DNA of 64,000 bases, taken from contig NW_026570326.1 of the NCBI RefSeq assembly GCF_019649055.1, forward strand, positions 248,001 through 312,000. Direction: 5' to 3'. A program made the position numbers and the translations under genes. A model generated the notes under the pieces. That model was not told the DNA's origin, ran no database searches, and saw only the letters and a program-made list of their open reading frames with translations. Every line of letters starts with the position of its first letter. The first letter of the stretch is position 1. This document shows, one piece after another, positions 2,938 through 31,661 of this stretch. Source of the DNA: Paramacrobiotus metropolitanus. Its lineage: Eukaryota > Tardigrada > Eutardigrada > Parachela > Macrobiotidae.

Positions 2938-5915
2938 ATGCCGAGCGATATCTACGCGACAAACGGTGTGGACGTCCTGGGCGATGACGGTCAGCTGTGT
3001 TATGGACACGTGGTGGACGTGGCCACCGGCGGACTCTTCATCGACTTCCTCTGTCCCGGACGCCATCGCGAGTTTACTCCATTCCACCGGGTCTCCACAG
3101 TAACAGCCATCACCTACTTACAAGCGCATGAGCGCGAAGACGATGCGGTATTCTACAACCGCTCACACTGGTCGCCCTCGGCAATGCAGATCCTGGTGCG
3201 ACCGACACCATCCAGTCCATGGACCTGGGTGCCGGCGGAGAATATCCATAAGGCGTACAACGGCCTGGGAAAACTTTGGCAGAGTGTGGCTGTAGTTCGA
3301 CCGTACCAAGAGGGCATTAGCATGAATATGCTTCACGGCCAACGCTTTCGCTACCGGATCGACAGCCTCGCTTCACTGAAACCTTTTCTCGATGCCGGCT
3401 CGATCCGGAATGAGTGGGCCGTGGTCGAGCCGGCGAAATCCGTCACCTTTGTCAAGCTACGCTTTCCGCTACCGAAAGAGTACGCCTCTCTTCCGACTGT
3501 CCAGCTACTACAACAGCTCAACAGTGCTAAACTACCTCTGCGGAACGATCTAGCCGTGCGCTTTGTTGACGTCGCGGATGGTTGGGTGTTGCTCATTGAA
3601 CGTCGTCTGCCGGAGAACAATGCCCGAGATGAAGACGATAAAGAAGAACCGGAGTTGAAAGTAAGGCTACCTTCTTTATGCTTATGGGTAAACGTTTCAC
3701 ATTGGCCCGATCACAAGAACGTGAAGCGGGTCCTTGGAAACTCCGTAAGCCGATGTTTTACAACCTGATATAATAAACTCGTCTCTGAGCTTCTGACCCA
3801 CCAACAATAAAAACAGGGTCCCGGCGCTTTAAAGGAAGTACCGGTAACTCGCGACACTGGCTGGCTGGCCGTGTTTGACCATTACCGGTACATGAAAAAG
3901 CTTTGTTTTTGATCGGCCTTCTGTAAACCGTACATAATCACACTGTTACACACATAATACATACAGTATGAGGATCGCTGTAACAACGTAACATCGAACA
4001 TTAGTTATTACAAATTTAAAAAATTTCAAATGACTTTTTTGAAATGGGAAAAATTTTAAGATCTTGTACGGCGCAAAAACCCTTTGTTAATTTGCGCGCA
4101 ATATTCTTGGAGAAGATCGGTCCAGAATGAGATTTTGGTGCACCGTACACCTGCCTGCGTGTGAGTTTTCTTGAAACCGATTACGTCCAGAACTCCTCAA
4201 CCGAATCTTGCGCGTTCATACTGTTTCTACGTATACGTGTTATTCATTTAATTGCTTAATGTTATAGTAAAACAGTAAAACAATACAAAAACTGTGTTTA
4301 AAGTGCGCGACTCAGCGTGCATGTGCATGAATTTGGTACCATACTTCCCGTAATTAAACATGCTCCGATAAATTCTAAAGATTGTAGACCCTGGACCCAA
4401 CGGTCTCGAATTGTGTTTGTATTGTAGACTATTCTCACATTTGCCTTTTTAGGAGGAGAAATACGGCTCGCTCCAGGCGTTGGCCTTGTACTTCGCGAGT
4501 ACAACTGTTATTTCACATAGACCCAACAATAATATAGACTTTGCGGACAGCGTTAATGACCTGTCGGGGGAAGTCTGGCTGGCCGTGTTTGACCATTTAG
4601 ACACCTGGACGCAGACCCAACTCCGCGCCGTCTGCTCAACCTGGGACTCCTTACTAACCTCCCCGATACTGACCGTCTCTCTTCTCCTGACATCACATGG
4701 CATGGCTACCGGTGATCCTCAACGGTTCATCCCGGAGACACTGCACTATCCGCTGGTGGCGCCCATCTTTAAGTGCCTGCGCGGATCCACAAAGCACATC
4801 ATCATTGTGACCAGTTCTTGGGAGAAGATCGCGGAGTATGACATAAAAGCTATGTGGGAGATGATGGCATACATGGCGCAGACAAATCCCCGTGCCAATC
4901 TGATCTGTATCTATTTGTGCGGATTTCAACTGCCGCTGCAGTGCGCCAGTGGTTGTGGCTTTGCGCACCACGATGGTTTTACGCCGGATCCCATAAAGCA
5001 TCCATACTTGATGCCCAGTCTCAACCGCATCTTGGGGGATCGGGTGCGGATCTCGTGCGACGCTCTTTGGTTGGTCCGGTGCAGCGTGGTGTTGGACGGA
5101 CGGACACTTAACTACGGAGGGCGTTTCACCCGAGTAGAGCAGGAGATCAGTATTGGCGCCGCTCGCATCGGTTTGGCAGGCGATGTCGCGAGCGGGTTGT
5201 GGGGGATCATGGAGGCGGCGACGCCGGAGCTGTGCAGCGACGAGTGGCAGAAGATTGACACGTGGTTGACGACGCTGTCCAAGGATACCGAATTGTACCC
5301 GGGATCTATGGATACCAGCAGGGTGGGCGAATGTCGGAACTGTAGGGCTCACTGGCGATCTTGCTGACGACTCTTTGCTGACTGACAGAACGTTTTCTTA
5401 ACAATTTGTTGAAACGACCAATCAGTCCTCTGCTGAACACAAATGATTCGCTAACGAAAACACATTAAGATAAAAAACTCTGAAAAACACCAGAAAAGGT
5501 TCTCAGAAATCTAAGCACCGTATAATTAAGCTACCGGCTATTGAAAAAGTCTTCGGCCCACGAATTCACCGGAAAGCGATTGTCGGTCATTACATTTTTG
5601 GTCGACGAATAGGGTGAATCAGCAATATGTCGGTCAGCAAATTGTCAAGAAGTTGAACACATCTCAAGGAATCGGCGTGCTATAAATGCGATTTCTGAAT
5701 TTTTACTGGCAGCTTTTCTCCAGGTTTTTTTGTTGTTGTTGTAGGCCTTCTGTGGGCTGCAGCTGGCCGATCCGCGTGCGGCGGCTCCGTATCGTGGAAA
5801 GCAGTGGTGTATCGATGGCCTCGGAGATGTATGCCCCAAGAAACTCTCGCGTGTAGCGCTGCGTTTCATCGTCAACATGGTGGATATGGTGTTCTATAGA
5901 CGCTATAGACGCTAA
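2938..5915 (+). CDS. Copy A: FMRP-like tandem Tudor + KH0 + F-box protein
   Basis: Three exons, 2938-3660, 4453-5322 and 5745-5915, all GT-AG and phase 0, give about 587 residues. The ATG at 2938 corresponds to the start of copy B (MxSxIYATNGVDVLGDDGQ). Residues 6-50 look like FMRP Tudor 1 (VDVLGDDGQ, then FIDF). Residues 83-140 look like Tudor 2 (PSSPWTWVPAE, later RFRYR). Residues 175-225 look like the FMRP KH0 domain (FVKLRFPLP, then LLQQL). The F-box lies at about 277-315 (LSGEVWLAVFDHL, QLRAVCSTWDSLL). The last exon carries QWCIDGL. Known: F-boxes bind Skp1 in SCF ubiquitin ligases, and FMRP Tudor domains bind methylated residues. Inferred: a substrate adaptor for ubiquitination. The FMRP resemblance is from memory of the human protein. 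Confidence 0.8.
4040..4215 (-). repeat. Dispersed repeat, copy 1, in intron 1 of copy A
   Basis: On the minus strand this resembles 19690-19830. Shared blocks are a GAGATCGGTCCATAATGAGA-like core, the TTTTGGTACACCTG-like edge, and a GGTTCGGGAGTT-like block downstream. A third, more diverged copy lies near 29040-29215. No coding capacity and no clear termini, so the repeat class is unknown. Confidence 0.5.
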
Positions 5916-6519
5916 TGGGATATATGTGTTATTACTGTTATACCCGCATCTATAATTTCGTCGCAGCTTTGTGGACACCTGATTTCTTTTGTGTATTTGC
6001 AGCATTTGTTCGGATTTGACCACCGCTTGTTTACCGAATTCCTCTGTTTTCTACGCTATTCTGCGCTTACCATTGACTTCGCGAGTGGCACTGTAAATTT
6101 GATTTCTCTCAGTGTTTCGGTTTCTAGAGCTGACTGCGATAACTTTATGTCTGGAAAGTTGTCCGTTTTTGCTAACCTTCTAGCAGTTATTTATTACCAA
6201 CTAATTGTTTGTTTTATTCGCTATTTCCAGAAAAAAATTACTTATCTTTAGGTTGGTATGGTAACATTAAGAAAGGACGGGGTGCAGTGGCGCGTCTAAA
6301 CATTTAGAAAAGGACGGCGGAGGTCGCCGAAGAAGCGAGAGAATACTCCAACCTTTGGTGTGAATTCTCTGGCCCCCCCTTCGAAACCGGCCAGATTCGC
6401 CATTGGACGGGTGAAACTGAAATCCCAGAGATCAGAAACCTATTTACGTGAGCAAGCGTGGCACACGTTGTCGAAATTGCGGCTTACTGCTACGAAGAAG
6501 ATTGCACTCAGTTGATTAT
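5916..6519. other. Intergenic, nothing recognised
   Basis: Downstream of copy A. I find no open frame with family similarity and no repeat shared with the rest of the window. The interval ends where similarity to the copy A promoter begins. Confidence 0.4.
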
Positions 6520-6753
6520 CTCACCGTTAACTGACCCTTTGACCTTGACGCATCCGTAACGAATGCGTTCACGCGACTTTCGTTCATACCTACACGCGAT
6601 AGACTTTCGTTCATATGAATATCTATCGCGCAAGGGGCGCTCCGTATCCGGAAGTTAGGAAAAATTTTCAGTTGTTCCTAGAGCATCCGTAATACTTCGT
6701 AACACAACCAGCTTTTAAACTTTTTCGGTAATTTTAAACGCTATAAATACATA

Positions 6754-7057
6754 TGAGAGGAGGAGTGGCTTCCCCGCACACCCGCACTGGTGCGGGTGCT
6801 AAGTTGTTTTGCTCCATCTACCAGCTCTTCGATCTGGTAGATTCTTCAGTTGCTAGCCATCGTCGTCTGAGTAACCTGCTGTCTTTAGCCCCGCAGCACT
6901 TGCTGCGGAGCTTGTAGTGTCATGTGAATGGGATAAAGTGCAGTTGATTGTCGGGTGTCTTGCGTTTCCGCATAACTCGTAGTATAACACTGCTCACTCT
7001 GCAGGATAGATTCCGTTTCTGTTCTCTGTCCGTGGATTCTTCCTAGATCCACCATCA
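6754..7057 (+). repeat. 5' LTR with three stable hairpins
   Basis: About 304 bp. It contains CCCGCACTGGTGCGGG, CTACCAGCTCTTCGATCTGGTAG and CCGCAGCACTTGCTGCGG as near-perfect hairpins, and a terminal GTGGAT/ATCCAC stem. All four are kept in the 3' LTR, the third with its loop changed. The unit is not a hammerhead: no CTGATGA core is present. Confidence 0.85.
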
Positions 7058-9974: not shown

Positions 9975-12318
9975 ATGACGAGCAACATTTATGCGACAAA
10001 CGGCGTGGACGTTCTCGGCGATGACGGTCAACTGCGCTACGGACGCGTGGTGGATGTGGCCACCGACGGACTGTTCATCGACTTTCTCTGCGGCAGCCAT
10101 CACCGCGAATTTTCCCCTTTTCACAAGGTCTTCACGGTGACGCCCCTCCAGCACTTGCCGGTGAAGAAGCGCACAATCCACACAGCGCTGTACACGCACT
10201 CACACCGCTGCGAGACTGCGCTCCAGGTACTGGTACGGCCGTCACCATCCAGTCCGTGGACCTGGAGGCTGGCGGAGAGTATCCGCATGACGTGCGGCGG
10301 ATCGGGGAAAAACTGGGATGGTGCGGCCCTCGTCCCGGCAGGTCCTGAAGGACTCAGCGCGGAGATCATGCACAGCGCACGCTTCCGCTACCGGTTCCAC
10401 TCTGCAAATGCCATGTTTTCGTCTGCCAGGCATTGGACCGAGCCGGTGGAGGCCGGGACCTTTGTCAAGTTGGGGCTTCCTTTGCCGATCGAGCACCGGT
10501 CTGTGCCGGCTATCGAATTGTTGCAACAGCTTAAAAACGTCAGGCTCGCTTTGCGGGATGATCTGGCCATTCGTTGTGTGGATGTTGTGGATGGATGGTT
10601 ATGGTTTATCGAACGTCGATTTCCGAAGGATCATTTCAGAGAAGAGAGTTCGAAGGTAAGAACGGCGCGCTGAGTCGACAAAAACGCTGGAGCGGCAGTT
10701 GCGACTGTTGTAATTATCCAGCTACAGTAACTAACTCGTTTTATTGGAGATGTCTTTCCAGGCTATTGGAAAATGTTTTTGGTTGATGTAGACATTTTTA
10801 TGCTTTTTGTTGGTGTGGTTTTAAGAGGTAAAATTTTACGCAACCGGGAAATCGAAACTACGATAGACAATCTTAAAAGTTAAAACCGTTAAAAGAACTA
10901 GAACGTCGGCAAACCAGAAAATCGGCAGACATAAAACCTGAGGTTCCTTAGAAGGAGGAATAGGAAATAAAAAGACATTGGTGACCGGTTGTTCAAAATA
11001 TATAATAAAATTGACCGGCTCTTGACAAAATTAATATCGAAGTCGAAGTACAGTTATTACTTCAAAATTCGAACCAAGGTTTCAGATATTTGTTAGGTCA
11101 TTATTAACGCACACGTTTTTACAAGGACCGAAGTGAACTCGTGCGTGAGTTTGCTGTGAGTGTGTGTAATGACAATTCCTGCACTTGTCGGTGTAGGAGG
11201 AAAAATACGGGTCCTTGCAGGCGTTGGCTCTGTACTTCGCGTGTACCGCTCTTCCACGTGGACTCACCACAGACTGCGAGGTAAAGGACAGCGCTGATGG
11301 GCTCCCGCGGGATGGTTGGTTGGCCGTGTTCTCGCATTTGGAAACGTGGAAGCAAACTCAACTGCGCACCGTCTGCTCAACATGGGACTCCATGCTGACA
11401 TCACCGATCCTGACTGTCACGATTCTCATTACGCCGCGTAGCACGCGAGCCAAGGAGACCAAACTCTTCAACGATACTGAACGCCAGTATACGCTGTTGG
11501 CGCCGGTCTTTAAATGCCTGCGCCCCTCCACAAAACACCTCCTGGTGGCCAATTCAAATATCCAGTTTTGGGATACCGATTTGGGGGAACTATGGGTGTT
11601 GATGGCTTACATGGCGCAGACGAATCCCCGCGTTCATCTGGCCGCCATCTATTTCTGCGGATTCCAGTTACCGCTGGCAACAGGCACCGGTTGTGGCCGA
11701 GAGCATTCCCGCAGAGGGAAGTGGTGGTGCACGCCGGGGCTGAACCGTATCCTTCGGGCCAAGCAGCGGGTACCGTGTGATGCCGTCTGGTTGGTCCGCT
11801 GCAGCGTCCAACTGAAATGCTGGGCATTCGACCGAACATTAAATCGATTCGAGGACTGCGAACACGGTTTGGAGCAAACAATTAGCATTCCTCCAACCCG
11901 ATTACAGTGGACCGGCAATGCCGAGGGCGCGTTGTGGGATACCATAGAGAAGGCCATCCCGGAGTTGTGCAGTGATGAATGGCAGGCGATTAACGCGTGG
12001 TTGACAAAGTTTTCGGACGATCCCGAAGTGTATCCGAATAATACAGATGCATGCAAGGTGAGATTGAGCGGGAGGCTTCCGACTGGTTCCTCGCAGATGC
12101 TGTTAATGTTTTCGTGATTGTTGCAGGCGTTCTGTGGACTACAGATAGATGATCCGCGCGTGCCATCGCCGTATCACGGGAAGCAGTGGTGTATCGACGG
12201 TCTTAAGGGTTTGCGACCGGAGGAATTGTCTCGTATCACCCAGCGTTTCTTTGTCATCATGGTGGATAAAGTCTTTTCTCTGCGCTGCAGACGCTCCATG
12301 TACTGGGTGGGGCCATAA
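9975..12318 (+). CDS. Copy B: FMRP-like tandem Tudor + KH0 + F-box protein
   Basis: Exons 9975-10655, 11197-12057 and 12127-12318, all phase 0 with GT-AG ends, give about 577 residues. Start ATG at 9975 (TTACCATGA). Tudor 1 is at residues 6-50 (NGVDVLGDDGQLRYGRVVDV), Tudor 2 at about 85-145 (PSSPWTWRLAE), KH0-like at about 165-215 (TFVKLGLPLP, ELLQQLKN), and the F-box at about 262-300 (LPRDGWLAVFSHLETW, QLRTVCSTWDSML). The last exon has QWCIDGLKGL. It is the nearest relative of copy A: the second exons align nearly throughout (KCLRxSTKH, YMAQTNPR, FCGFQLPL, ALWLVRCS-like, ELCSDEW). The frame is unbroken. The role as an SCF substrate adaptor is inferred from the domains. Confidence 0.8.
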
Positions 12319-13170: not shown

Positions 13171-15229
13171 ATGTCCAATCCCATTCACCAACCCAACAGC
13201 GTCGATATCCTGGGTTACGACGGACTGTTTCGGCACGGCCGTGTGGTGGACTTCGGGTCCCACGGGCTCTTCATTGACTTTCTCAATCCCGAGTGGCAAC
13301 CCCAGTTGGTGGCCTTCGACCTAATCTCAAATCGCCTTTACCGTCAGCTATGCCTGATATGCGGCTGACCATTGCAGGTCGTTTATCGACTGCATCCGTT
13401 CCAGTGGAGGTGCTGATGCGTGAAACCCCGTCCGATCCCTGGATCTGGTTCCCTGGTGAACTGATCCACGTGTCCTGTGGCACGAAAGGATTTGCAGTCG
13501 TCGTCCAGTGGGGAAACACGCTGAATACAACAGCTGTCGTGCCCAGCTACCGTATGCGCTGGAGAGTCCCGAGTTCCTGGTACATAATGCACAATGTATC
13601 CTTTCCGGCACATCTAATGAAATCGTGCCGACACTGCCAGGATATCTGTGCTTGTATGATGTGTTTCTACGACTTGCAACATCAGCCCGAGCGCGTTACG
13701 CCGATTATGTTTGCGAAAATTGGTGTGCCGTTGCCTGAGAACTGGCGCCCGGCACCGGCTGACCAACTGGTGAAGGAGCTGAGCAACTATACTCAGAAGC
13801 TGTCGTTTATCGGTGTCGGATATGGATGTTTCTGGTACATCGGAGATGGATTTGACGTCCGTTCCACAGAGATGGTAAGAATGATCGCGAACCCAGTATT
13901 ACGCAAATTTGGGCAATACTCCTTCTTCGCAGCATATGTACTGTAGCAGTTTCATCAGCAACCCAGCATTTCCGAGTGAGGCGAGGCCATACATACCTTT
14001 TTAGCGATTGCGGGTTGCAGAAAAACCGGGTGCATCGCAAATGCTACAATGAATGTGACTGAAATTTTGTAGATCCGCCAACTTAGTGCGCTGGTTAAAG
14101 TTCTTCCGAATATCGTTCGTCAGCTCGCAATATCGATCTGTGAAGAGCGGCCCGCGGAAGAAGGCAGCTGCTTCCCGGTGGAGCTGTGGCTGGAAGTGTT
14201 CTCCCATCTGGAAACAATGGAGCAGAACAAACTGCGCGGGGTGTGCGCAGCAGGGAACGCTATTCTGGCTTCCCCTTTACTGACAGCTAACCTCCTTATC
14301 ATTATGGTTGAATCGGGATCCGCTGATGATCAATCGGCTTACCGTCTGGCAGCGACCCTTTTGAACTGTCTTACTGCATCAACGAGGAACGTTGTTGTGA
14401 GGGGATGCTTTGAGATGCTGCGTGTGCTGGACATGGTAGAGTACGCTGCGCGGACTAAGGGAATCCGGCTTCCGGTTCTGCATTTGATGGGCATGTGGGA
14501 GGCCCTTTTCCTTGACGTGAACGAGTGGCGTTCTTGTGCGGTGCACACAGGAAACCGGGTGCCCTTGCAGTACCCTTTGCAACGCGCGATAGACGATGAA
14601 TTTTCGCTGTTTGACTTTCTGGCATTCTGCCGTCGGGTTCCTTGTGATGTCATCCATTTGGTGCGTTGTGAGCTGAGCCTTTGGTGGGGGGATGTGGATG
14701 ACTACGCGCCAATGAAATATGCTGACAGCCGGCGAGTTTATACTGAAGCGGTTCGTTTAAATAACAACGACGCCTTGGAAGCGGCAGTGTGGGATGTTTT
14801 TCATGCTAAGTTCTCGGTCCTGAGCGCTGACTGTTACCCGATTCTGATGGACTGGTTAGCGAAATGCGGAGAAGAGGAGGACCAATTTATTTGCAAGGTT
14901 AGGCAAAATTGACTGCTGCTGTGTGCTGTCATTTGCGGTTTTCTGTAGCGCACACTTCTCCTCTCATCGTAATCTAACGTTCCCTGAAATGTCGCATAAA
15001 TACCAAATAAAACTGTCAAAGATTTATTAAGAAAAGAAGATTTCTCTTGCAGATGTTGTGCGCTACCCAGACCGCGGATCCGTGTCCTACTTCGCATTAC
15101 CGCGGCAAGAAATGGTGCGTGGACGGCCTGAAAAACCTGCAACTGGACAAGTTGAATCGCATAGCGCTGCAGTTCCTATGGAGTGTGCGGTCGCAGGACG
15201 TACCATTTAGGACGAACGAACGGTCTTAA
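13171..15229 (+). pseudogene. Copy C: Tudor/F-box family member with a frame break in exon 1
   Basis: Exons 13171-13874, 14073-14897 and 15053-15229 match copy D exon for exon (I checked the phases of exons 2 and 3). Tudor 1 (NSVDILGYDGLFRHGRVVDF) is in one frame and Tudor 2 (VEVLMRETPSDPWIWFPGE) in another. The break lies between about 13320 and 13385, where C is also some 24 bp shorter than D. A GT-AG pair here would give an intron of only 35 bp, which I consider unlikely. After the break the KH0-like segment, F-box (FPVELWLEVFSHLETM, KLRGVCAAGNAIL; the usual Trp of the VCxxW motif is Gly here) and last exon (KKWCVDGLKNL) are open. It is either a damaged gene or a sequence error. Confidence 0.7.
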
Positions 15230-16530: not shown

Positions 16531-18840
16531 ATGTCTGAACCCATTCGCCAAGCCAACAGCGTCGATATCCTGCGTTACGACGGGCTGTTTCGGCACGGCC
16601 GTGTGGCGGACCTAGATTCCAGCGGGCTCTATATCGACTTCCTCAATCCCAAAAGGCAGACCAAGTTGGTCGCTTACGACCGCATCTACCAGCCGTGTTC
16701 GTGTTTAAGTTTAACGTATCCTCTGCGTACGACGTATTTCAGCGTTAAATTTTCTCTGCCTACTGCAACCGTTCCTGTGGAGGTGCTGATGCGTGAAACC
16801 CCGTCCGATCCCTGGATCTGGTTCCCGGGTGAAGTGGTTCACATGTCCTGTAGCACGGAAGGATTTGCCGTCGTCGTCCAGTGGGGGAACACGCTCAGTA
16901 CAACGGCTGTCGTGCCCGGCTACCGTGTTCGCTATAGCGTGCCAGTTTCGTGGTACGCCAGTCATAATGAATCTCTTCCGGCACATCTCGAACCCCGAGA
17001 TGGCTCCTCTGGTCGCTCCTACTGGACACATGAACCGGAGCGCGTTGCACCGGGGATGTTTGTGAAGCTTGGTGTGCCGTTGCCGGTGAACGGGCGCCCG
17101 ATACCGCCTGATCAACTGCTGAAAGAGTTGAGCAACCACACTCGGATGCTGTCGTTTATCGGCGTGGATCATGGATGTCTGTGGTACATTGGCGAGGGGT
17201 CGTGCATCCGCTCCGCAGAGATGGTAAGAGTAATCACGATTCCGGTACTGAACGTTTTATGACAGTGTTCCCTTTCCGCCAGTATTCTTACTGATTTAAT
17301 CGCAACCTACGTAGTGATTCTTCCCATACGCATGTGGCAGGCAGTCATGCGGCACGGGTGCACCGTGCACAAATCGTTTTTCTGGATGCACACTGAAATA
17401 TTCGGGTGCCTAATTGAGTAGTTGTGCACATTTAGACATATTGCATTCCTATGAATACTTGGAGTAGTCTGATTTTTCGTTTTGGCGGTTACCAAAAACA
17501 GCGTCATACTGTAATACTTTGGCGTTTTTTGCATTCGGGACACTTTCACGGTATGGAATAACATACCGGACAAGGTATTCTCAGCGAGCTCATACTGTGA
17601 AAATGTCTGATAGGCTGAAACTCCGAAGTACCAAAACTGCGTTTTCTTGTTCCACTTCTTTAGAACTGATTTTATTAGCATTGCCGTCTCAGTGGACTGG
17701 TCAAAGATCTTCCCCGTATCATCCACGAGCTCGCAAAGTCGAGCTACAAAGAGTGGCCCGTGGAAGACTGCAGTTGGCTCCCGGTGGAGTTGTGGTTGGA
17801 GGTATTCTCCCACATGGAAACGCTGGAGCAGATCAAACTGCGCGGTGTCTGCGCAGCATGGAACGCTTTTCTGGATTCACCTTTGCTGACGAAGAACATC
17901 CTTATCCTTATGGTCGATTCGGAATCCGTTGATGATCAGTCCGATTACCGGCTGGCAGCGACCCTCTCTAACTGTCTGAGCACCTCGACGCGGACAGTTG
18001 TTATAGCGGTTCGCCCTAGCGCAGAACCGTCGTGTTGGACCATGATGCTGCGCGTGCTGGACCTCGTGGAGTATGTGGCGCGACCGAAAGGACTCCGGCT
18101 GCCGGTTCTCTGTTTGGTAGGCATACGTCAAACTCTAGATTTCGACCTGGAGAACTGGCACAATTGTGCGCTGCACAACCAAACCAGGAAGCCCATTCAG
18201 AGCGCGCTGCAGTACGTATTGGGCAAATTTTTGCTGTTGGACTTCCCTGGATTCTGTCGCCGTGTTCCCTGTGATGCCATCCGGTTGGCTGGCTGCACAC
18301 TGCGCCTGTGCTATGGCTCAACGTATGAGTGGGATTATTTTTATGATGCCTGTGATTCTTGGGACGTCGGTGTTGACGCGGTTCGCTTTGGGAACACGGG
18401 CGGCCTGGAGGATGCCGTGTGGAATGTGTTGGACGGTAACTTCCCTGTACTGAACGCTGACTGCCTCCGGATTTTGGCGGACTGGTTGACAAAGAGCGGA
18501 GCAAGCCAAGACAAATTCATCCGCGAGGTCTGACACAGTCGGTGACCGTCTTCTGTTGTTCTAAATTCTTCTTTCCTCGTAATGTTTCGCATTTCTGTCG
18601 CAGGATAACGATTAACAGTGCCGAAGATTCGCTAGAAACATAATGATAAAGTTTCTTTTGCAGTTGTTGTGTGCCACGCAGACCGCGGATCCGCGTTCAG
18701 CATCGCATTACCGCGATAAGAAGTGGTGCGTGGACGGTCTTCAAAACGTGCGACTGGACAAGTTGACTCGCATTGCGCTGCATTTCCTATGGAGTTTGCG
18801 GGCGTCGAAATGGCCATGCTTTCGAAATGGCTTTGATTAG
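16531..18840 (+). CDS. Copy D: intact Tudor/KH0/F-box protein
   Basis: Exons 16531-17223, 17679-18527 and 18664-18840, phase 0 throughout, give about 572 residues. Start ATG at 16531, in the same context as copy C. Tudor 1 is NSVDILRYDGLFRHGRV with YIDFLNP. Tudor 2 is VEVLMRETPSDPWIWFPGE. The KH0-like part is FVKLGVPLPVNGRP with LLKELSNHTR. The F-box, at about 263, has LPVELWLEVFSHMETL and KLRGVCAAWNAFL. The last exon has KKWCVDGLQNV and LTRIALHFLW. C and D form a subfamily distinct from A and B, sharing near-identical Tudor 2 sequence, and look like a recent tandem duplication. The function is inferred only from the domains. Confidence 0.8.
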
Positions 18841-20272: not shown

Positions 20273-23200
20273 TCATCCACCGGTCCACTGTAAAAAAATT
20301 GAAAATAAATATAAATAGTGAAATTAATAAATTAATTAAATAAAAATTATTTTAATGCTGCTAAACTGACAATAATGGATGGATAGCAGATTGATAATTA
20401 CGATAACATCATGTATTTATTTTATTAATTTAATTTATTTATTTATGATAATATTATTTTATTAATTTATTTTATAATAGTATATTTTCCAGATTTATTT
20501 ATTGATAAGTATTTATTTCGTTGATTTATGTATAATTTCATTTAGATTTTACCGGTGTTAATATACATTAAATTTTAAAATTAATTAATTTTATCAGCTA
20601 ACTATTCGACATGCGGAAATTAGGCCGTTATTTACCTGCAGCGTGTTGAGTTTGGGATTGCGCTGCACCAGCGCCAACTCCTGCGCTTCCCGCTCGCCGA
20701 AACGCGCAGCCTGCTGCACGGCCGTGGAACGGCTGGCGTGGTCGCCCACATGGCCGGCGACGTCTGCAATTTATCAACATCCAAAAGTATACACAAATCA
20801 ATATGCCTGGATTGTTCGAGCAATGCTCTACCGGCATAAAATCATAAAACGAACGAAAGTGCTATGCGCCCGGAATTTTTCCGGGCGCATAGAAACTAAA
20901 ATAAAATTTAAAAAAAAAATTTAAAATTAAAATAAAATTTAAAAAACAAAAAAATTAAATTTAAATTTAAAATTAAATTAAATTAAATTTAATTTAATTA
21001 AATTAAATTTAATTAAATTAAATTTAATTAAATTAAATTTAAAACTAAAATAAAATTTAAAAAACAGCAAAATAAAAACAAAGAACATAATAAACAAAAA
21101 AAATATTAAAAACAACAGATTTCTATTCTATATTTTCTATAAATGCTGCTGCTTTCAACGCCAGTAAATAATTTCACAAAAGCGAAACAGCTCAAAAAAA
21201 CAGTTATTGTAAAGGGGTATAAATTTTGTCCAATTTGGAAAGCTACATCTGTTTCTACTCATTTGCAGCAGTAAACAACCGCAGTGCGAAAAAATCTTTT
21301 TTTACATTTTTCCTCAAAATTGTGTCACTATTTTTTTCCAGCAGAAAATAATTTCACAAAATCCACAAATCAGAAATTTTTTCCCACACGTGTGGAAGTT
21401 GCCTTCTTAATGCTAAATAATTCTAATTTGCAGTCGTTTATATTTTTAGAGTTTTCCCCGAGCGAAAGAATCTTATATTAACATTTTTCTACACGTTCTG
21501 TGGCTATTTTATTCGGGGGTTTTTTCCACTAGAAACATGCAGTGCGAGATACACGCGTCAACTGACCGGAAATGAGTTTGAGGGCGTTGATGCTGAGCTG
21601 CGGCGCGGGGATTTTGTCGGCCAGATCGGCGGCGGCCTTAGCCGCTTTGAAGGCGTTATCCCACTGCGCCAGGGCGGCGCAGTTGCGGGCCAGCAGCATG
21701 AGACTGTTGGCCATCATCTGGTTGAGATCCTCCGCGTTGCTCAGCTGCAGAGCGCGCTGCAACAGCACCTGTCCGTCCGCGAAACGGCTCTGCAAGACGG
21801 CCGTCCACTTTAACATTTATGCACAATTTACACCACCTTTATTCGGGATTTTCAAACGTTTAAATTACCAGCATTTACGGCGTCATTGTTAATTTTCTAC
21901 TCATTTAGAAAGCGTCTGCTCTAGTTAAAAATAATAAATGGATAATTAAATACCGGTAAGTGCCAATATAAATAATGATTGTTTAAAGTGATCATTGTTT
22001 AAAAAAACCTTGAATATCATTCGTGATGAATTTATTTTAAAACCGATTTGTTTACTCTAATGGTTTTTTCATAAAAGGTCTAGCACAACACAGTTTATTA
22101 TTTTCATTTCTTAACGATTAAATTGCCAGTTATTCCGCAAGTGAAATATAACTGTCCCAATTAAACACTGGTATTATTATGTGAAAATAAATTCTCAAAT
22201 ATTCCGAATACAGATAGTCATTAAAAAATTAATTATGACTGAATCATAATGAATTAACTGCTTGTATAATAATTGATAAATATTTCAGAAATAAAAAAAA
22301 ATTATGGGGAAGGCTCCGCACACCACGTTTCACCACTAAAATCTCCGCACACCACGAAACACCACCGCCAGGCTCCGCACACCACTTTTTATCATTTTTG
22401 AATTTTTTAGAAAAAGCCACCGAAATCTCCGGACACCACCAAGGGCAGAGTGCACACCACCAGAGTCTCTGCACACCACTATTTTGAAAGAAAATTAAGC
22501 AATTGTTATTACCGGCGGAAAAAAAAACAGCTCTTTCGTCTCGCGGTCTGGCTCCTCTTTTTTGGTACCACTCGTCAGCCTCCGCTTCCGTTATAGTAAG
22601 CGATTTTTTCGGTTTTATTCGCTTGGCTACCCTGCCAGGACGGTGTTTAAGTTTTTGCACACGCTTAGCTACGAATGATGTTATTACCCACTCCCTCACG
22701 GTTTTTCCAGAAAAGGTACTCTCCTGTCGGTCAATTCCATTGAGCAGCTCGTGCGCAAACGGTAAAGCGTAAAGGGCACAATCGATTCCGTTTCCTTGGT
22801 TTTGGACAGCCTTATGGCTAACGGTAATCTGCTTTTCCGGCGGTGACTTCCCATAAAGCAGCCATATTTGTCCTTTAGTACGCCGATATTAGGCGTATAT
22901 ACGACCGACTACTGCATATCTTCGAAACTAAGAGCAAAATGTGGTGTCCCGAGACTATCGACGTTTCAAATATATATAGTGGTGGCGTAAAAATGGTGAC
23001 CCGAGTCCCCCGAGACAAAACGTGGTGCGAATAGTGGTGTGCGCCGCCTGGTGGTGGTGAAAGGTGGTGTGCGGAGACTTTGGTGGTAAAACGTGGTGCG
23101 CGCAGCTTTCTCCAAAAATTATTTGGGCATTTGGCTTACCTCGGCGAGGGCCTTGAGCGCCTGGACGATGAAGGCCGAACAGCGCAGTCCCACATGATCC

Positions 23201-26200
23201 GGCGCCTGGTCGGGCAGGGAGCGTTGCGCGGCGTTGAGGAGGTCCAGCCAGCGCTGCTGCTTGTAATACAGCAGCGCCTGGTTGGCCGTCAGCAGTGCCA
23301 ACATTTCCGGACTCTGGCACCACCTGACCCAGAGCAACACACCGATTAATTGATCAATTTATATTCAATTAAACATAATAATAAATTTCAAATAGTTTAA
23401 AATTTATAATAATAATTATAAGTTATAAAAATAATTTAATTTATGTATATTAAATATAAATATTTATTTTATTTATTTATTTAACTTTTTTAATTTATTT
23501 TAATGTATAATTTATATTTATAATTTTATAATTTAATTATTAATTTTATAATTTTTTAATAATTTCATAATAACCAATTAAAATGGCTCATTAAATTGCT
23601 GCGCTACATATAATTCATTTTTTAAAAAAATCACAAATTTATCGGAAATAATTTCTGTAGTTCCACTAGTCATTTACGATGCGGATCTAACCAGACACCA
23701 CACAACGGAGATTAATTACCGAATTTACTCATCTATAAATTTATTATCCATCATTTACTTTTTCTTAACCGGCTATTAATACAGTTACCACAATTATTAA
23801 TTCATCAACCATAATTTGGCTGTTTTTAATGTTTAGAATTTAATTATTTTTCACCAAAGTCCACCCGTAATTTACAAATGATGCATTTCTTTTTATTTAT
23901 ATTTTTACTTATTTATGATGCATTTATTTTTATACAATTTCTTCCTAATCGCAATTTTATTATTTTTAAAAACAATGTTATCGGTTTAGTTGTATTATGA
24001 TCCGCGATGCACGTACCGATAAGCGTAGCCGAACTGCGATTCGGCCACCTCGTTGTAGCCGAACTGCAGTGCACATAAGCCCAGCAGCGTGTGCAGCTGG
24101 CAGCGCCGCGGACGCATCAACGTGGAATCTTTGCAGCTGCAAAAACAAGCCAAAAATATCAACAAAATTTATTAAAAAATTAAAACCGATTTTTGCAAAT
24201 AACTGATTTTCCAAAACATAAAAATATTAAATAAATGACATACCGTTTTTCCTCAAAATATAATCCAAAGCAAAAAAATCGTAAAACATATTTTCAATAC
24301 GAAAACCGTTTTTCTTCAAATAAGCAATCCAAATCAATAAAAAAACGATTCCAAAATAATACGAAAAAAGTGAAAATTTAAAAACATAAAAAAACAATTC
24401 GAGAAAATAATAATAATAAAAAAATCATTTTTTCTAGGAAGTCCCAAACAAACAGATTCCAGGAAAAAATTATAAAACGTAAACGTTTTCTCGAATAATT
24501 TTAAACAGCCAACAACGCAGCCAGTTTGCAACTTTGCAGTCATCACCATAAGAAAATCAAATTTTTACTACATACGGTACATAAAAATTAAGCAAACATG
24601 AAAATTGATAAAATCGAAAATAAGAAACGGAAAAATAAAAAGAATATAAATAAAAATAAATTACACATGCGAATAATCGCGCAAAAATCAGTCCTAACCA
24701 GAGCGTGATGTAGTCGCTGATCTGTTCCAGGGCCTGGTTGAAGCGGCCGGTGCTGAGACTGGTGGGGATGGCGTGCTGGTACATGACGCAGCGCAGTTCA
24801 TCGCGCAGTGCACCGTGCTCCGTTCCCACGAGGCCGTCGAAGAAGGATTTGCAGCGGTGCACCAACCGGTCCAGTTTGTCATGGTAGCCCACCAGCGCGA
24901 AGAACTGCGCGGAAACTGTAAGCATCACAGACGGGCAATTAACCACTAGGCATTCCGTAAAAAAATAATTTTATTTTCAGTTATTTATTTATTTCCGTTT
25001 AATTCTACATACATTTATCAATTTTATTTTCAATTTCCTATCAAAATTTTATTTTCAATTTATAACTTTATTTATCGATTATTACTACAAACAACAGCGG
25101 CATTACTAAAACGGTATTCCAGAAAAACCTATTTAGGAAAACATAATTGGATTATTTAACTAAAAAATTTAATAAAAAACTTAAATACTTGTGCCGTTGT
25201 ACATAAATATCAGCATTTACCGAACAGATTTATTGCAAATATTTTCATATTCTGCCAGATCTGCCTTGTTGTTAAAAAACTTGCTAAGAAAATTGTTTCT
25301 TTCAATTCTACGATAAATTATTACAAGTCACTGTAAACGTTTTCTACAATCACGTGGTGGCTTATTAATGTTTGATTTTAATTATGAAAAAACGAGAGAA
25401 AATAGTTTCTAGCGCAATAATAAAATTAACGGATTTTTTCTGCTGAAAATTGTTTAATAAATTAGATTAATGTTTAAATTAATTAGATTGATTACGGCAT
25501 CAGTTATTATGAATAAATTACTATGGATTAAATAGACTGATAATTTAAATGAATAAATAAGAAAATATAATAAATAAAAATAATAATAAATGAGAATAAG
25601 CGGTAATATATGACCAGCTATTATTATGCAATATATGTGCCGGTATTTACTGGCAAAATGCAGCGCCGGAAACATGGAGCGGGGCGCCAGTGCGAACATC
25701 TGCAGGGGATGGTCGGCGGGCGGGGCCTGGGCGGCGTTCTGCGTCAGCTGGTCGAGGGCGGCCTGCAGCGGCGCCACGTAGGGCCGCACGGATTTGGCCT
25801 GGCCCATGTTGAGGCGACACAGCGCCTCCAGGGCGATCAGATAGAAGCGCAGTTCATCGCGCAGCCCCACCGACACCTGGGCGGTGGCGGCGTCCAACCG
25901 GCTGCCAATATCCGCCAGCGACGTCACCGCGGACTGGTACTGTTTGCCGCGGATGAACACCTACAAATTATTTTATTATAACAGTTTATTATTATTGATC
26001 CTATATTTCTTATTAATTATATATTATTTATTATTATGAATATTTGATATTCCGTCCTATTCTATTTAATTATTTTTCCTGTTTCTTACTACTAAAAGTA
26101 ATAAAAATATTATTTAAAATTTAAAGTAGGAATAATAACTTGTTTTAGATAATTATTATATTTGGTATTCTAGGTATTTAATTTATTTTTCACTATTATT

Positions 26201-28407
26201 TCCTGTTTCATATTATCAAAATATTCTAGCCTCTAGGTATAATCATAAATTTATTCTTGGTATATTTAATTTGGTATTCTAATAATTTATTTATTTTTCA
26301 TTATTATTTCCTATTTCAAATTATCAAAATTATTATAAAAATATTTTTAAAATAATAATAAGAATTTGTTTTTGTGTTATAAATATTTGGTATTAAATTT
26401 TGGTATTTAATCTGAATCTAGTTAATTATTTTTCGTTATTATTATTTCCTATTTCAAATTAATAAAATTGATATAAATATTTTTAAAATAATGATAATAA
26501 TTTGTTTTTGATATTATAAGCGTACATGCGCGCGGGCCAGCTGGAAGAGCGTGGTCAGGTAGTCGGCCTGATGGCGGGCGGAGAACGACTCGCCCAGTGT
26601 CAAGATCTGAGTGGCCACTGCGAAACAGAATACACAAACAAATTGAACAAAATTCAACAGGGAGTGGCCCGTAAATTAAATTGCCCTCGTCCAACCTGTG
26701 TGGTCCTGGCCTTGCACGAAGACGTTCTACAAAACAAGCCAAAATCCTGCTTTAAATCACTGTGGCACCAGACAGATATGCACATGCGAAATTTCGTCTT
26801 TTTCAAGAATTGTGGCATTAAGTAAACCTGCAAGTATGTATATGCTACGCAAAAATGCACTCATCAGCAAAATACGAGAAATAACAAAAAGTAAAAACAC
26901 AAGAAAATACAAATAAATTAACTGACGAAATTTGAATAAAAACTGATATCAATAATAAATTAAAATTAACAAAGCAATACAAATAAATAAAAAGATCAAT
27001 AAAAACGCGAATAAAATGAAAACAAATAACACAGAAGTACTCGTATAACAGAAAGTGAAAATAAATAAAAACATCAACAAAAATCGCGAACATTAACAAT
27101 TTATCTAAACAAGCGCGCAAAATTGTCACTGAAATCCAACTAAAAAGTAATTGTGAAAACAACTGATGCGCGATGAATAAATAAAAACGCAAAATATTCA
27201 AGAGAAAAATTCGGATAACAAAACCAGCGCGTAATGTACAAAAATAAAAAAAATAAATATTTCAAAGAAAATTACTCCCCTGACAAATATTTCGCAAATG
27301 AGAAGATAAGCAGAATCAAAACTCTAAAAATAGCAAAAGCAAATTACACACGTTGCAAAGGAAAATTGCCAGAAATTTCGTGTTTGTTTCTTCACTGACC
27401 GCCAGCTGGAAAATAAAATGGCACTGCCAATACGGCGAATGCTGCGACTGCTCGATGGCTGTGTGGAGGATGTCGCGGGCCTGCGCCACATCATCATGCG
27501 CCACGTAGTAATCAGCCAGGGCGGAGGACGCGTCCAGACGCGCCTCCTCCAGGGCGCTGCCGTTCTGCGCCTGCACAAATTCATATTAAATTCATTTGTG
27601 TAATTTTCCCTTTAAAAAACTGCGTCCTCTTACGTGGAGTCCCATATTCACCTGCAACAAGCCAAAACAATCCCGTTAATAAAAACATGTTAAAGTTCCT
27701 TGATTACTGCAATAAAAACGATTAAAAAATCCTAATTAAACACTAATTAAAATTGATCAAAAATGCGAAAAAGATGCAAACAATAGTGAAAGAAATAAAT
27801 ACAAAAAGCATTCAAAATTTCAAATGGTCGATAAAACTGTTGTAAGAAAAAGATCGGATTAAATACTCAATACTTAATATAAGAGTTAAAAACCAATAAA
27901 ATTAAAGCAGATTAAACGTTTAAAACAATTTTTTCTGGGATTTGCCTAAAACACCCCCGAGGGCGTGCGCCAGGGCGATAACGGTAAGATCTCAGGGGAC
28001 TCAAAACTCCCGCCTCCCTGAAGCCTTCCCCCACGGGGGCGACCAAACAACAACACGAAAACGATGTCAACGGTCGCCCCAACCCTTGACTAAGCCGCCC
28101 ACGGAGGGCGGGGGTCAGCAGATTAACCCAGACTCACCGCGCTGTCCAGGTAGTACTTGGCGACGTCCTGGCTGTCGCTGTGGCGCAGCAGCAGCTTCCC
28201 GATCTCGCAGTGGATGCGCGCCGACACCACGTGGGGCACGTTGAGCGCCAGGATGGCTACCAGGCAGTGGTAGGCCCCCGCGGGCTCCCCCTGGGAGCGC
28301 AGGGACTCGGCCAGCCCCAGCAGCGCCACGTACATCTCGTACTGCTCGGCGCTGCTCCAGGCGGAGGTGGGGTCGGGGGTGGGGGTGGGGTAGTGGGAGG
28401 TGGACAT
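20273..28407 (-). CDS. MAU2: MAU2 (SCC4), cohesin loader TPR subunit
   Basis: Twelve exons: 28407-28138, 27651-27634, 27570-27400, 26726-26696, 26617-26526, 25960-25651, 24915-24699, 24136-24017, 23323-23140, 21789-21567, 20763-20636 and 20287-20273. All splice sites are GT-AG, all phases agree, and they give 592 residues against about 613 in human. Landmarks shared with human MAU2: SPYWQCHFIFQLA (human TPYWHCRLLFQLA), GQAKSVRPY, QLHTLLGL, LSNAEDLN, ADKIPAP, and the end LQWTGG (human ITWTDG). The protein is a TPR-type superhelix that wraps the N-terminus of NIPBL/SCC2 to load cohesin on chromatin. An 18-bp microexon encoding VNMGLH is needed to match the human spacing. Introns are extremely AT-rich; the one at 21790-23139 hosts a foldback element. 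Confidence 0.92.
20862..20892. repeat. Perfect 14-bp stem hairpin in a MAU2 intron
   Basis: CTATGCGCCCGGAA, a TTT loop, and the exact complement follow one another. It is GC-rich and sits in an otherwise AT-only intron, directly before the simple AT repeat. Confidence 0.8.
20893..21060. repeat. AT-rich simple repeat
   Basis: About 170 bp of TTAAATTAAATTTAATT-type sequence in a MAU2 intron. No coding capacity. Confidence 0.8.
22300..23125. mobile_element. Foldback-type element with long inverted arms and a Ulp1-like fragment
   Basis: The left arm (22300-22485) and right arm (22935-23125) are imperfect inverted repeats of about 180 bp. They are built from repeated TCCGCACACCAC units (GTGGTGTGCGGA on the other side). 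The 450-bp centre carries a protease-like coding fragment on the minus strand. Long TIRs made of short repeats are the hallmark of foldback elements, some of which are MULE derivatives. The element sits in the MAU2 intron with its right end within about 20 bp of the 5' splice site at 23139. Confidence 0.65.
22470..22886 (-). pseudogene. Ulp1/C48-type cysteine protease fragment inside the foldback element
   Basis: The minus-strand frame reads AVQNQGNGIDCALYALPFA and then HELLNG, followed by a basic, Glu-rich tail. Q-x-x-x-N-G-x-D-C-x-x-Y/F-A is the C-terminal active-site signature of C48 (Ulp1/SENP-like) peptidases: oxyanion Gln, then catalytic Asp-Cys neighbourhood. The catalytic His region upstream is absent because a stop codon lies close before (near 22887). 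Ulp1-like domains are known passengers or components of MULE-type transposons. Recognised from the motif alone. Confidence 0.6.
27930..28115. other. GC-rich, structured insert in MAU2 intron 1
   Basis: In contrast to the other AT-rich MAU2 introns, this stretch is GC-rich. It contains inverted repeats: GGGGCGACC (28040s) against GGTCGCCCC (28070s), CCCCCACGGGGG, and CCGCCCACGGAGGGCGGGG. It may be a fragment of a structured mobile-element RNA; I do not recognise the family. Confidence 0.4.
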
Positions 28408-29454
28408 TTTCCGGAGGGAACGTGGAGGATACAAAATGAAGATGACAGGATCTGGGAGTTAAAAGTTTTAACTTAAAACTTAAAAGAAGCAGCGATGGTA
28501 CAAACCGTCAAACAGACTCAAACTCCACATAAAAATAATTAAGCAGCGAGGTCTCACATCGTTGGCCGCAAAATTCACGCTGCTATCGGCGCTGGCATGA
28601 AAAGGAACGTTAACATAATTTTAAACACAAAACTGTAACAAACTTTTATTATTTATATTAAATTATCAACGAGACAACGACCAACGTTGACAATGTCAAA
28701 ATTTTAAATAACATGAAAAATATCATCGAAAAATAATGGAAATGCTGTTCGAGACAGTTTCGAGTGTTGTTACATACAACTTACAACTTGCAAGTGTTCT
28801 AAGTAGATGCGCGCCATGGGCGGTCGCCGTGCAATTTATTTTACCGCGAAAACAAGGTTACAAGGGGTATTTCTTTGTCCTTTCGGATGTCTTTTATAAG
28901 TTTTATTTAATCCATAATTACATTTACTTCCGCTGGACAAGTAACATCTTTTGTTTTGAGCTTTTTGAGTGACGTCGCTAATTTCTTGCAGATGCCAGCC
29001 AAATTGTCGAAATGCGCAAAGCGAAGCCATCGAAAAGTTTCATGCATGAAAACGCGCAAACTTTCATTTTCGCGCTCTTACAAAGCTTTTTTTCATTTTT
29101 TTGTGACAATCTGTAACTTATTATTTTGTAATCGGTGTAGACAGACGTGAAAACCGTTCGTACGCGCTGACAGCGCGCGACATTCCGTTCAGCAGTAAGA
29201 AACGTACAAAAATTATTGATTTGTTATGAAACAATTATCAAAAGACATACAAAAATAAATAATAAAATCAACCGTTACTGCATTTCCATTGCTCTTTTAG
29301 CCCTCAAGTCAGCCAAAATCAAAAAGCGTCTCAACAGGTTCGCCCGGTTCAAACATCAAACAATTAATGAACAAGTAAGAAAACGGGAAATGAGCAAGAA
29401 CGCGTTGTCCATAGTTAGTCGACCAGCTTGTGCCCTGTTGGCAATTCTATCGCA
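28408..29454. other. Intergenic between MAU2 start and copy E end
   Basis: It includes the MAU2 upstream region. 29040-29215 is a diverged copy of the dispersed repeat (GTGAAAACCGTTCGTACGCG, CAGTAAGAAAC). No gene seen. Confidence 0.5.
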
Positions 29455-31661
29455 TTAAATGGGAGAGAACTTGGAAGCGGGACAGGCCACTTCAAAGATC
29501 AGTTCCGCTTCGGCTAATACGCAGTACATGAGGTACTGAACCATGCGGGACAGCCGGTTAACATCATCCAGCGGCTTCCAAAAAGTGGACTTCCGAGGAT
29601 CCTTAGCATGCCGGCTGCTGACGACCTGTAAAACGTTACGTTCATTCACTTAACTGTCAACAATAACAGTGCCTGGGAGCAGATACAACCGCGCTACTGG
29701 CAATAAGAATTCGCTCCATCAGTAAAAGACAGATTCAGTGCCTTCTTTTTATCTGTCATCTAATAATCTATCTAAGGTATTACAAAAAAGGTTGTGTTCA
29801 CCGAGTCTAACGACGACCAGAACGTATTTCGTTCACCCTCCACAAGTGCAGTGGATACGAGGTTCTTCTGTTGGTCATCCAGCAGCGGACAGGCTTGTTC
29901 GATCATGTCCCACCAGTCAGCGACAGTCAGACGCCGGTCGCTGTTCATCCGGGCAAACGGGATGCGGATAGTAATCAGCAGGCATCCGTCCATAGCAGAC
30001 AAGAAAATCTTTACGGTTCTTTACGGTTCTTTACGGTTAGCGTACGACAGATCCTCGCCAGGGAGTCAAAGACTGTGTGAATCGTGGTAATGTAATCTTC
30101 GAAGGTATCCAGATAATGGACGCAGCTAATATCCTTTACAATCAGATGGCTGGGAAATTTCTCCGCTCCTCCTTGCATGATCTGACGGAGAAACAGTCCA
30201 TCACACCAGGGCAAGCACTTCAGCCGGGTTGCCTGTCTGATATCCGCAACAGGTGAGCCCACAATGGCGACACTGCGGTTACTCCAACAATGATGCAGGC
30301 CGGCCACAGGAATATAAACGTTGTCCGGGGAAGATGAACGTGGGCGATTGGAGTTGCTCTCTGATGGGAACCGAATGTGCAGCAGACTTTTGACGGCCGC
30401 CGATGTGAGGAGGTCGTTCCAGGCAGCGCACACGGCCCGCAGCCGGCCCTGAGCAACGGTGCACAGATACTGGAACGTTTCTGTTAGGATTTTCGCGGGC
30501 AGACACTGAAGTGCGTCATATACGTCAAGGGCCGACGGTTTTTTCTGCACCGGTGACGCTGAGGAGCCGCTGCAGCACAGCTCTCCCTTCCAGCGTTTTG
30601 GCCTGGTCAGGAATTCGTGCCCGCGTCGACGCTTCCTACTGTTGATAGGAGTAGTGCTGGAATTCTCGTCCTCCAAAAGGCGGAGCACGGATTTACTCTG
30701 CAAAAGTTATTTGTCCCATTAATTTTGCTCCAAGTAACGCACGGCACAGTCTCGAGGATTTCTTACATAAAACTGCAACATTTCCTCCAACTGCCCGCGT
30801 TCCAGTTTCTCTTGTGCACCGTCGGCCAACGACACCCTCGGCGCATGAAGTCGGATGCGGTCGTATGGAACCACGGTGTTGACGTCCCCGCTAAGATAAT
30901 GGATGGTGACCCAGCCGAACTGACGATAGCACCAGTCATAGACGAGGGCTGTGGCGGGGTACCACTTCCAAGGCTCCGTTGGGCTGTGTTGCATCGGCAC
31001 CTCCACCGGATCGTTGCACCCTGCAACAAGTAGTTCTCTCTTTCACAAACATTTTTCCAGCTGGCGAGGCACTTTTATTTCAAGTTTACTCAGGTGCTAT
31101 GTGATGCCTGTATAGAACCTATTCAATTTTACGGTATTTCGCTTGACTGCTAGGCACACTACGCCTAATTGAAATTACCGTGTTCAACAGACTTACATGT
31201 AGGCTGGAGCAGCCAGGTGAAAACCGTTTGAAAACAGCGTCTCCATCAAACGTGGTCATTCATCATAAAAACGTTCATTTCTACATAGTACGAGTACAGT
31301 AGTCTTTGAGCCGATGTGCGTATGATTGGACGACACGAATGACCACTCCCTTGAGTTAGTACTGCTTGTCTTATACCAGAATTAGGCGCATTATGGTTTT
31401 TAAATTACCTTGATTGCCGTAGAACGTGGTAAGTGGCGCTTTTGAAGTATAGAAATCAACTCGGGATAAGAAGACCTGGTCCAAAGGAACCCATTCGAGC
31501 CGTCTGCCCGCACATCGAAAATCCACGAGTACTCGGCTTGTGGAACGGGCTACTGCTTTGCCACACTGAAACGCCCCATCATCTCCAAGAACCTCCACAA
31601 CGACAAAATCCTCCGCATCCTTCACCAACAATTGTTTCAGAAAGGCACACGACTTCGGCAT
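29455..31661 (-). CDS. Copy E: divergent Tudor/F-box member with a repeat-caused frame break
   Basis: Exons 31661-31409, 31020-30743, 30697-29802 and 29625-29455, GT-AG, phases consistent. Tudor 1 has VVEVLGDDGAFQCGKAV and VDFRC, Tudor 2 has PTEPWKWYPATALVYDW and VVPYDRIRLH. The KH0 segment is only a short helix-rich remnant. A basic patch RKRRRG follows. The F-box has LPAKILTETFQYL and RLRAVCAAWNDLL. The C-terminal exon is collinear with the others but lacks the WC[IV]DGL motif. At 30011-30038 a 10-bp unit (GTAAAGAACC) is present in tandem; removing two units restores the frame exactly (896-20 = 876 nt). As given, the protein stops after the repeat. The ATG at 31661 is chosen because the frame upstream has no ATG. 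The 45-bp intron 30742-30698 is short. Confidence 0.7.

Follow-up and report, generated by a model that had tools for sequence, protein, structure and literature searches.

An FMRP-type Tudor module joined to an F-box in a large gene family of the tardigrade Paramacrobiotus metropolitanus

Results

Five Copies of the Gene in the Window

The stretch of DNA analyzed here, 64,000 nucleotides of the Paramacrobiotus metropolitanus genome (contig NW_026570326.1, positions 248,001 to 312,000; hereafter the window), carries five copies, A to E, of a gene in which an N-terminal module (the N-module) resembling that of FMRP, FXR1 and FXR2 precedes an F-box and a C-terminal region of ∼200 residues. The exons are listed below in window positions, with splice sites predicted from the DNA sequence.

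2938..3660, plus strand: copy A exon 1 (241 amino acids), with Tudor 1, Tudor 2 and a KH0-like tail; ATG at 2938, donor GTAAGG at 3661
4453..5367, plus strand: copy A exon 2 (304 amino acids), with F-box and C-terminal region; acceptor TAG at 4450-4452, phase 0; spliced A has 545 amino acids
9975..10655, plus strand: copy B exon 1 (227 amino acids), the N-module; donor GTAAGA at 10656
11197..12117, plus strand: copy B exon 2 (306 amino acids), with F-box and C-terminal region; spliced B has 533 amino acids
13171..13874, plus strand: copy C exon 1, with a frame break in the linker between Tudor 1 and Tudor 2; class I profile match in two pieces in different frames (74.3 and 113.0 bits)
14073..14912, plus strand: copy C exon 2, with F-box and C-terminal region
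16531..17223, plus strand: copy D exon 1 (231 amino acids), with Tudor 1 at ∼16555-16686, Tudor 2 at ∼16774-16941 and the KH0-like tail at ∼17038-17196
17679..18533, plus strand: copy D exon 2 (284 amino acids), with the F-box at 17772-17894 (Pfam, residues 32-72); spliced D has 515 amino acids
31409..31661, minus strand: copy E exon 1, Tudor 1; ATG at 31661; 37.5 bits with the class I profile, 28.1 with class II
30767..31020, minus strand: copy E exon 2, Tudor 2, with no KH0-like tail after it; 25.5 bits with class I, 38.1 with class II
30011..30697, minus strand: copy E exon 3, with a basic linker, the F-box at 30398-30511 and a truncated C-terminal region; spliced E has 397 amino acids
29775..30020, minus strand: remnant of the copy E C terminus in another frame, behind the GTAAAGAACC tandem repeat; C profile positions 202-251, independent E-value 0.0021

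Three of the copies (A, B and D) are intact and have two exons, the first of which encodes the N-module up to a phase-0 GT donor and the second the F-box and the C-terminal region. A phase-0 GT-AG intron separates the two exons in A, B, C and D (792, 541, 198 and 455 bases, respectively). In copy E, Tudor 1 and Tudor 2 lie on separate exons, followed by the basic linker and the F-box without a KH0-like tail, and the frame is broken near the 3′ end, such that the last ∼80 codons are out of frame past a 10-base-pair tandem repeat near 30011-30020. The start codons of A and E are those given in a preliminary description of the window, and the sequence motifs which it listed as shared are present with small deviations. 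The Tudor 1 motif reads VDVLGDDGQ in A and B, VDILGYDG in C, VDILRYDG in D and VEVLGDDG in E. The Tudor 2 motif PWxWxPxE, found in A, C and D, is altered in B (PWTWRLAE) and E (PWKWYPAT), and the motif of the KH0-like tail, TFVKLxxPLP, is exact in A and B only, with MFVKLGVPLP in D, MFAKIGVPLP in C and no counterpart in E.

N-modules of the genome were represented by profiles of two classes, I and II. Every window copy is matched by the class II profile, for which only loci elsewhere in the genome were used. Copies A, B and D score 78.2, 85.4 and 79.5 bits, and the broken copies C (42.0 and 25.7 bits) and E (28.1 and 38.1 bits) are matched in two pieces each. Judged by these scores, the match exceeds chance.

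The N-Module Resembles the N Terminus of FMRP

The class II profile (A5; 11 sequences from ten other loci, no FMRP row) was compared with 177,635 PDB sequences, and its six best matches are all FMRP or FXR proteins, at E-values of 1.7e-10 to 5e-8 (FXR1 3kuf, 1.7e-10; FMRP 4qw2, 3.3e-10; 4ova, 6.7e-10; 4qvz, 7.1e-10; FXR2 3h8z, 2e-8; 2bkd, 5e-8). The next match has an E-value of 0.74. The alignment with FMRP is collinear, running from the start of Tudor 1 through Tudor 2 to FMRP residue 160, and the order of Tudor 1, Tudor 2 and the start of KH0 is that of the FMRP, FXR1 and FXR2 N termini (4qvz, 4ova, 3kuf, 3h8z). A mixed profile (A7), which includes copies A, B and D, retrieves the same six sequences first (4.7e-10 to 1.5e-7), followed by the ribosomal protein uL24m at 0.015. 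The two classes are linked to each other, with the class I profile matching ten class II loci at 41.3–91.5 bits and the class II profile matching copies A, B and D with the scores given above.

The FMR1 gene of this tardigrade is a separate gene (locus L021, C5:3433812-3433952; L and C numbers are our handles for loci and contigs), matched by Pfam Tudor_FRX1, KH_9 (KH0) and, in two stretches, KH_1. It extends from Tudor 1 through an RGG-rich part in a single open frame of 630 amino acids. Aligned to the N terminus of this FMRP with hhalign, the class I profile scores 70.3 (E = 2e-10; maximum of 200 shuffles, 21.3; reversed, 9.3), the class II profile 76.0 (E = 3.8e-11; maximum of 150 shuffles, 23.6) and both classes combined 90.0, with the class II alignment again collinear and reaching residue 175. 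Unlike FMRP/FXR, and unlike the animal's own FMR1 with its KH_9 and KH_1 matches, the ten window exon translations give no match to a KH family in Pfam up to E 10, and carry an F-box instead. On these alignments, the presence of tandem Tudors of FMRP type in the N-module is secure.

FMRP fell next to class II in a tree that included it as a single row; support was weak (84/94), the branch long and the bootstrap unsettled, and the root of the tree was not used. Viral contigs scanned with the class II profile yielded no relative. Elsewhere in the genome, five loci (L022, L023, L024, L025 and L029) have open frames of 94–102 amino acids with Tudor 1, and the 3 kb that follow show neither Tudor 2 nor a clear F-box; four of these loci are among the best Pfam Tudor_FRX1 matches after FMR1.

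An F-Box and a C-Terminal Region Follow

The Pfam F-box model matches copies D (30.8 bits, 2.4e-7) and E (23.3 bits, 5.6e-5) above its 20.5-bit cut-off, and copies C (19.4), A (18.4) and B (15.5) below it. When the best 150 of 1080 candidate F-box matches in the genome were scored, all 150 lay above the cut-off. The class I F-box profile (A2) retrieves four PDB sequences up to E 10, the best of which, the KDM2B F-box, is weak at 0.06. The class II F-box profile (A6) retrieves 20 up to E 10. Of these, 19 are named as F-box proteins, with FBXL2 (3e-5) and FBXL3 (0.002) at the top and the remainder at 0.025 or weaker; the other name is CDK2-associated p19. Skp2, Cdc4 and Dia2, which are among these matches, we take to be F-box proteins. 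With the family profiles finding F-box structures and Pfam above cut-off in two copies, the F-box proposed for the window copies is, on sequence evidence, real. Past the F-box, no Pfam match above cut-off was found in the window copies, in agreement with the earlier statement that the C-terminal region belongs to no known family.

N-Module and F-Box Occur in One Gene

An F-box region lies on the same strand in all 20 N-module copies chosen for inspection, several of which were picked for long frames, and shares one open frame with the module in ten of them. In an even-step sample of N-modules, an F-box region lies downstream in 17 of 17, the two being in one frame in a single case and several being in broken pieces. 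Copies that lack a shared open frame have N-module and F-box in adjacent or overlapping frames. Both samples bear out the proposal that an FMRP-type Tudor pair and an F-box belong to one gene. An even-step sample of generic Pfam F-box loci has an N-module upstream in 15 of 18 cases, including L039, where the module is found by the class II profile and cut by the end of the stretch. L035, L036 and L048 have none. L035 (C54:285401) is the best Pfam F-box match of the genome, among the best 150 of 1080 candidates scored; it falls outside the family by every profile used and is probably an ordinary F-box gene. For at least 68 of the 150 scored F-box matches, an N-module on the same strand is listed no more than 3 kb upstream; among the matches listed, the N-module is on the opposite strand for nine and downstream on the same strand for five.

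Pairwise distances among N-modules correlate with those among the F-box/C-terminal parts (r = 0.716; 45 loci, 44 of class I and one of class II; 0 of 2000 permutations), and the nearest neighbor is the same for both parts in 27 of the 45 loci. These distances indicate joint descent of the two parts in class I, to which the result is limited because all but one of the loci belong to that class.

The Family Has Hundreds of Loci

The genome searched comprises 169.8 Mb in 533 contigs. Four N-module queries were used, for each of which the best 150 of 821–1031 candidates were scored, and matches <600 bases apart on one strand were merged. The result is at least 473 N-module loci on 108 contigs, a count that may include alleles and broken genes and in which a gene split by >600 bases appears twice. 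The contigs richest in listed loci are C82 (42), C1 (36), C19 (33) and C35 (29). Among the matches listed, class I accounts for 194 loci and two class II lists for 149 and 147, with overlaps of 2, 0 and 15. The five window copies are therefore a small part of a family with hundreds of loci, which, in comparison with the 24,903 coding genes in the published set for Paramacrobiotus sp. TYO (PMC8277472), amounts to ∼2%.

The pairs L003/L061 and L006/L002 are identical or near-identical across contigs C195 and C35; L003 and L061 have identical N-modules, and their C-terminal parts have a synonymous divergence (dS) of 0.007. This suggests that C195 represents an alternative haplotype for a section of C35, in which case alleles can enter the locus count. 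Broken copies occur outside the window as well, as fragmented loci (L058, L065, L066 and L069) and as rows with in-frame stops in the genome listings. Together with the broken frames of C and E, they agree with the tandem expansion with dead copies described earlier.

Both Halves Are Constrained

Ratios of nonsynonymous to synonymous divergence (dN/dS) were calculated with codon-bootstrap bounds for 12 pairs, some sharing a locus. For the N-module, the ratio is 0.19–0.45 with an upper bound below 1 in 11 of the 12 pairs and 0.68 in one with too little divergence; the N-module value of L002/L006 is uninformative (dS 0.05). For the F-box and C-terminal region it is 0.22–0.57, with an upper bound below 1 in all 12, and it exceeds that of the N-module in nine pairs, with overlapping intervals. 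Over the initial 50 residues of the F-box match, the ratio is 0.13–0.83 in the ten computable pairs, nine of which are below 0.55. These ratios indicate purifying selection on both halves, and the genes are for the most part constrained at the coding level. No overall positive selection was seen in these 12 pairwise comparisons.

The Methyl-Lysine Pocket Is Incomplete in Many Copies

The methyl-lysine pocket of FXR1 consists of Y95, W97, V66 and E104, and FXR1 and FXR2 bind H4K20me3 with dissociation constants of 692 μM and 448 μM, respectively (PMC2970552). Read through the alignment of mixed profile A7, the position of Y95 is aromatic (W or Y) in 13 of the 21 class I rows, and each of the 11 class II rows has V, I, S or T there. 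At the position of E104, an acidic residue (D or E) is present in 19 of the 21 class I rows and 10 of the 11 class II rows. Within the window, A and B lack the aromatic residue, and D has the aromatic but not the acid. Because the aromatic, a feature of FMRP/FXR, is missing in many copies, the methyl-mark reading suggested in the preliminary description is doubtful. It is not supported as a general rule, given also the 0.4–0.7 mM affinity of FXR1 and FXR2 themselves, and methyl reading would at best be a property of some copies.

Other Features of the Window

Exons of a tetratricopeptide repeat (TPR) protein resembling the cohesin loader MAU2/Scc4 lie on the minus strand at 21529-28458, with a Cohesin_load match at 28123-28458 (E 0.00053; 18.9 bits, under the 25.8-bit cut-off) and weak TPR matches at 21529-21816 and 27316-27585. 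Between these exons are two stretches, at 22244-22888 (minus strand) and 23035-23349 (plus strand), with the similar tails VVKRGVRSLPHNFF and VVKRGARSFLQKLF. The former has no convincing Pfam match, and the two are possibly a repeated mobile element.

Discussion

We consider it probable that these genes form one very large, lineage-expanded family of putative Skp1-Cul1-F-box (SCF) substrate receptors, built on an FMRP-derived module and grown by tandem duplication. The predicted protein comprises an FMRP/FXR-derived Tudor pair, extended in classes I and II into a KH0-like fold or at least the start of one, then the F-box and the ∼200-residue C-terminal region. The F-box would dock on Skp1-Cul1, while the FMRP-type module and the C-terminal region would jointly hold a target protein or ribonucleoprotein (RNP) for ubiquitination. 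Because the C-terminal region changes somewhat faster, it may be the surface at which specificity varies more, with the FMRP module the steadier of the two. At the origin of the family, an FMR1-derived N-module would have become fused to an F-box gene while FMR1 itself was retained, and the family would then have grown by tandem duplication with frequent decay. We infer a single fusion for the whole family.

Several results weigh against this model. The class I profile alone (A1, 21 rows) reaches FXR1 at E 0.21 and FXR2 at 1.3, behind four uL24m sequences (0.0037–0.024), presumably kinetoplastid. Single copies barely reach the Pfam Tudor and Agenet models (best 0.031 and 0.018): Agenet is matched by three of the 21 class I rows (best 0.065) and two of the 11 class II rows (best 0.018), and Tudor_FRX1 by one class I row (0.031). 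AlphaFold2 models from window-only alignments of 3 and 4 rows have a mean predicted local distance difference test (pLDDT) score of 35.0 and 38.6, and because of this low confidence they demonstrate no fold. Taken alone, KH0 is not significant against the animal's own FMRP in class I (16.5, E = 0.061) or in class II (15.4, within the shuffle range, maximum 19.3). Skp1 is present, which favors the model, but it is little expanded, with just four loci in the genome. L042, counted among the 15 F-box loci with an upstream N-module, has weak N matches (14.7 and 18.6 bits). Of 13 loci from the Tudor_FRX1 search (L022–L034), nine have no F-box within 2–3.5 kb, an F-box region being found at L026, L028, L032 and L034, and three non-FMR1 loci that pass the Tudor_FRX1 cut-off show none within 3 kb, one of which, L023, is under the cut-off in a second Pfam scan. 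N-modules without a nearby F-box may thus exist, and the argument for a single fusion is weakened both by these loci and by the near-restriction of the distance test to class I.

Some of these points would fit an N-module that is a generic pair of Tudor/SH3-like barrels, convergent with FMRP, in which case the fusion of Tudor domains to an F-box would still be right. The rank of uL24m, ahead of FXR1 with the class I profile and next behind FMRP/FXR with the mixed one, is in its favor, as are weak matches of single members to Pfam Agenet, S1 or PilZ. However, every match of the class II profile below E 0.7 is to FMRP/FXR, with alignments that cover the two Tudors in sequence and enter KH0, and the mixed profile places the same six sequences ahead by five orders of magnitude. 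Foldseek, the structural check proposed in the preliminary description, ranks FMRP/FXR chains as the top 8 of 350,542, but from a poor, low-confidence model and with none below E 0.07 (0.071–0.23), which is weak support. Convergence is accordingly very improbable in our estimation. What stands of the proposed Tudor-Tudor-KH0 architecture is the tandem Tudor, by profiles and hhalign. KH0 is partial: the alignment is collinear to FMRP residue 160, copy E lacks the tail, and the domain alone is suggestive only with both classes combined (19.7, against a maximum of 17.5 in 100 shuffles). As a collinear extension, KH0 is likely but unproven.

A different question is whether the F-box still serves an SCF complex. 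Some F-box proteins act outside SCF, and the F-box here could be a relic, the proteins being FMRP-like RNP or chromatin binders or decoys for FMRP partners; the sub-cut-off scores of A, B and C and the small number of Skp1 loci point that way. We nevertheless judge this unlikely, with all 150 of the best F-box candidates above cut-off and dN/dS in the F-box stretch below 0.55 in nine of ten pairs. More weight attaches to the view that the expansion is mostly neutral drift of a tandem family with few functional copies, as plant F-box families have been interpreted (PMC3030570). Broken copies are common, in the window (C and E) and beyond, but both halves are constrained in the sampled pairs, and we regard predominant drift as a serious, if less favored, possibility. 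Should the receptor model hold, the hundreds of receptors, with the FMRP N terminus as their common front end, could constitute an inherited intracellular surveillance repertoire that recognizes RNPs or proteins of viruses, transposons or selfish genes by the FMRP-type module together with the variable C-terminal region and has them degraded. We put this forward tentatively, as a defense or conflict role suggested by copy number and analogy alone.

Large F-box expansions are already known in animals. Caenorhabditis elegans has 377 F-box genes and C. remanei 1426, and the Caenorhabditis FBA2/FTH families resemble the tardigrade family in their species-specific tandem expansion and in joining an F-box to a long, divergent and faster-changing C-terminal region (PMC8665587). 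In the Caenorhabditis families the F-box is N-terminal, whereas in the tardigrade family it comes after an FMRP-type module and is followed by a C-terminal region with no match in Pfam. Certain F-box proteins function as antidotes by delivering a toxin to SCF, and an F-box protein also degrades an essential enzyme in a hybrid between two nematode species (PMC12680543). The KSS/KSL antidotes of C. tropicalis likewise belong to large, rapidly evolving F-box clusters able to supply SCF receptors against harmful proteins; they have a C-terminal solenoid, and the accessible text mentions no Tudor module (PMC12680543).

UHRF1 is a RING ligase with other domains, encoded by a single gene. As proposed for the tardigrade proteins, a tandem Tudor is coupled to ubiquitination, and UHRF1 has been compared with FXR (PMC2970552). 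Searches, largely by title, of the literature outside preprints and most subscription journals found no earlier description of an architecture joining the FMRP N-module to an F-box, and among the papers searched the statement that no such protein has been described stands. The main text of a comparison of Hypsibius dujardini and Ramazzottius varieornatus contains neither "F-box" nor "Tudor" (PMC5531438). As far as these searches reach, it is the FMRP N-module as a front end that is undescribed.

The FMRP module has apparently been captured into a ubiquitin-ligase receptor family with at least 473 loci. To our knowledge, this module otherwise occurs in conserved, low-copy RNA-binding proteins alone. 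If the model is correct, the family would be another large animal F-box expansion, constructed unlike those of nematodes, and would provide a natural library of FMRP-module variants from which the binding partners of the module could be learned. For the animal itself, it may represent a large, fast-changing protein-disposal system, and a candidate protein-surveillance system in tardigrades.

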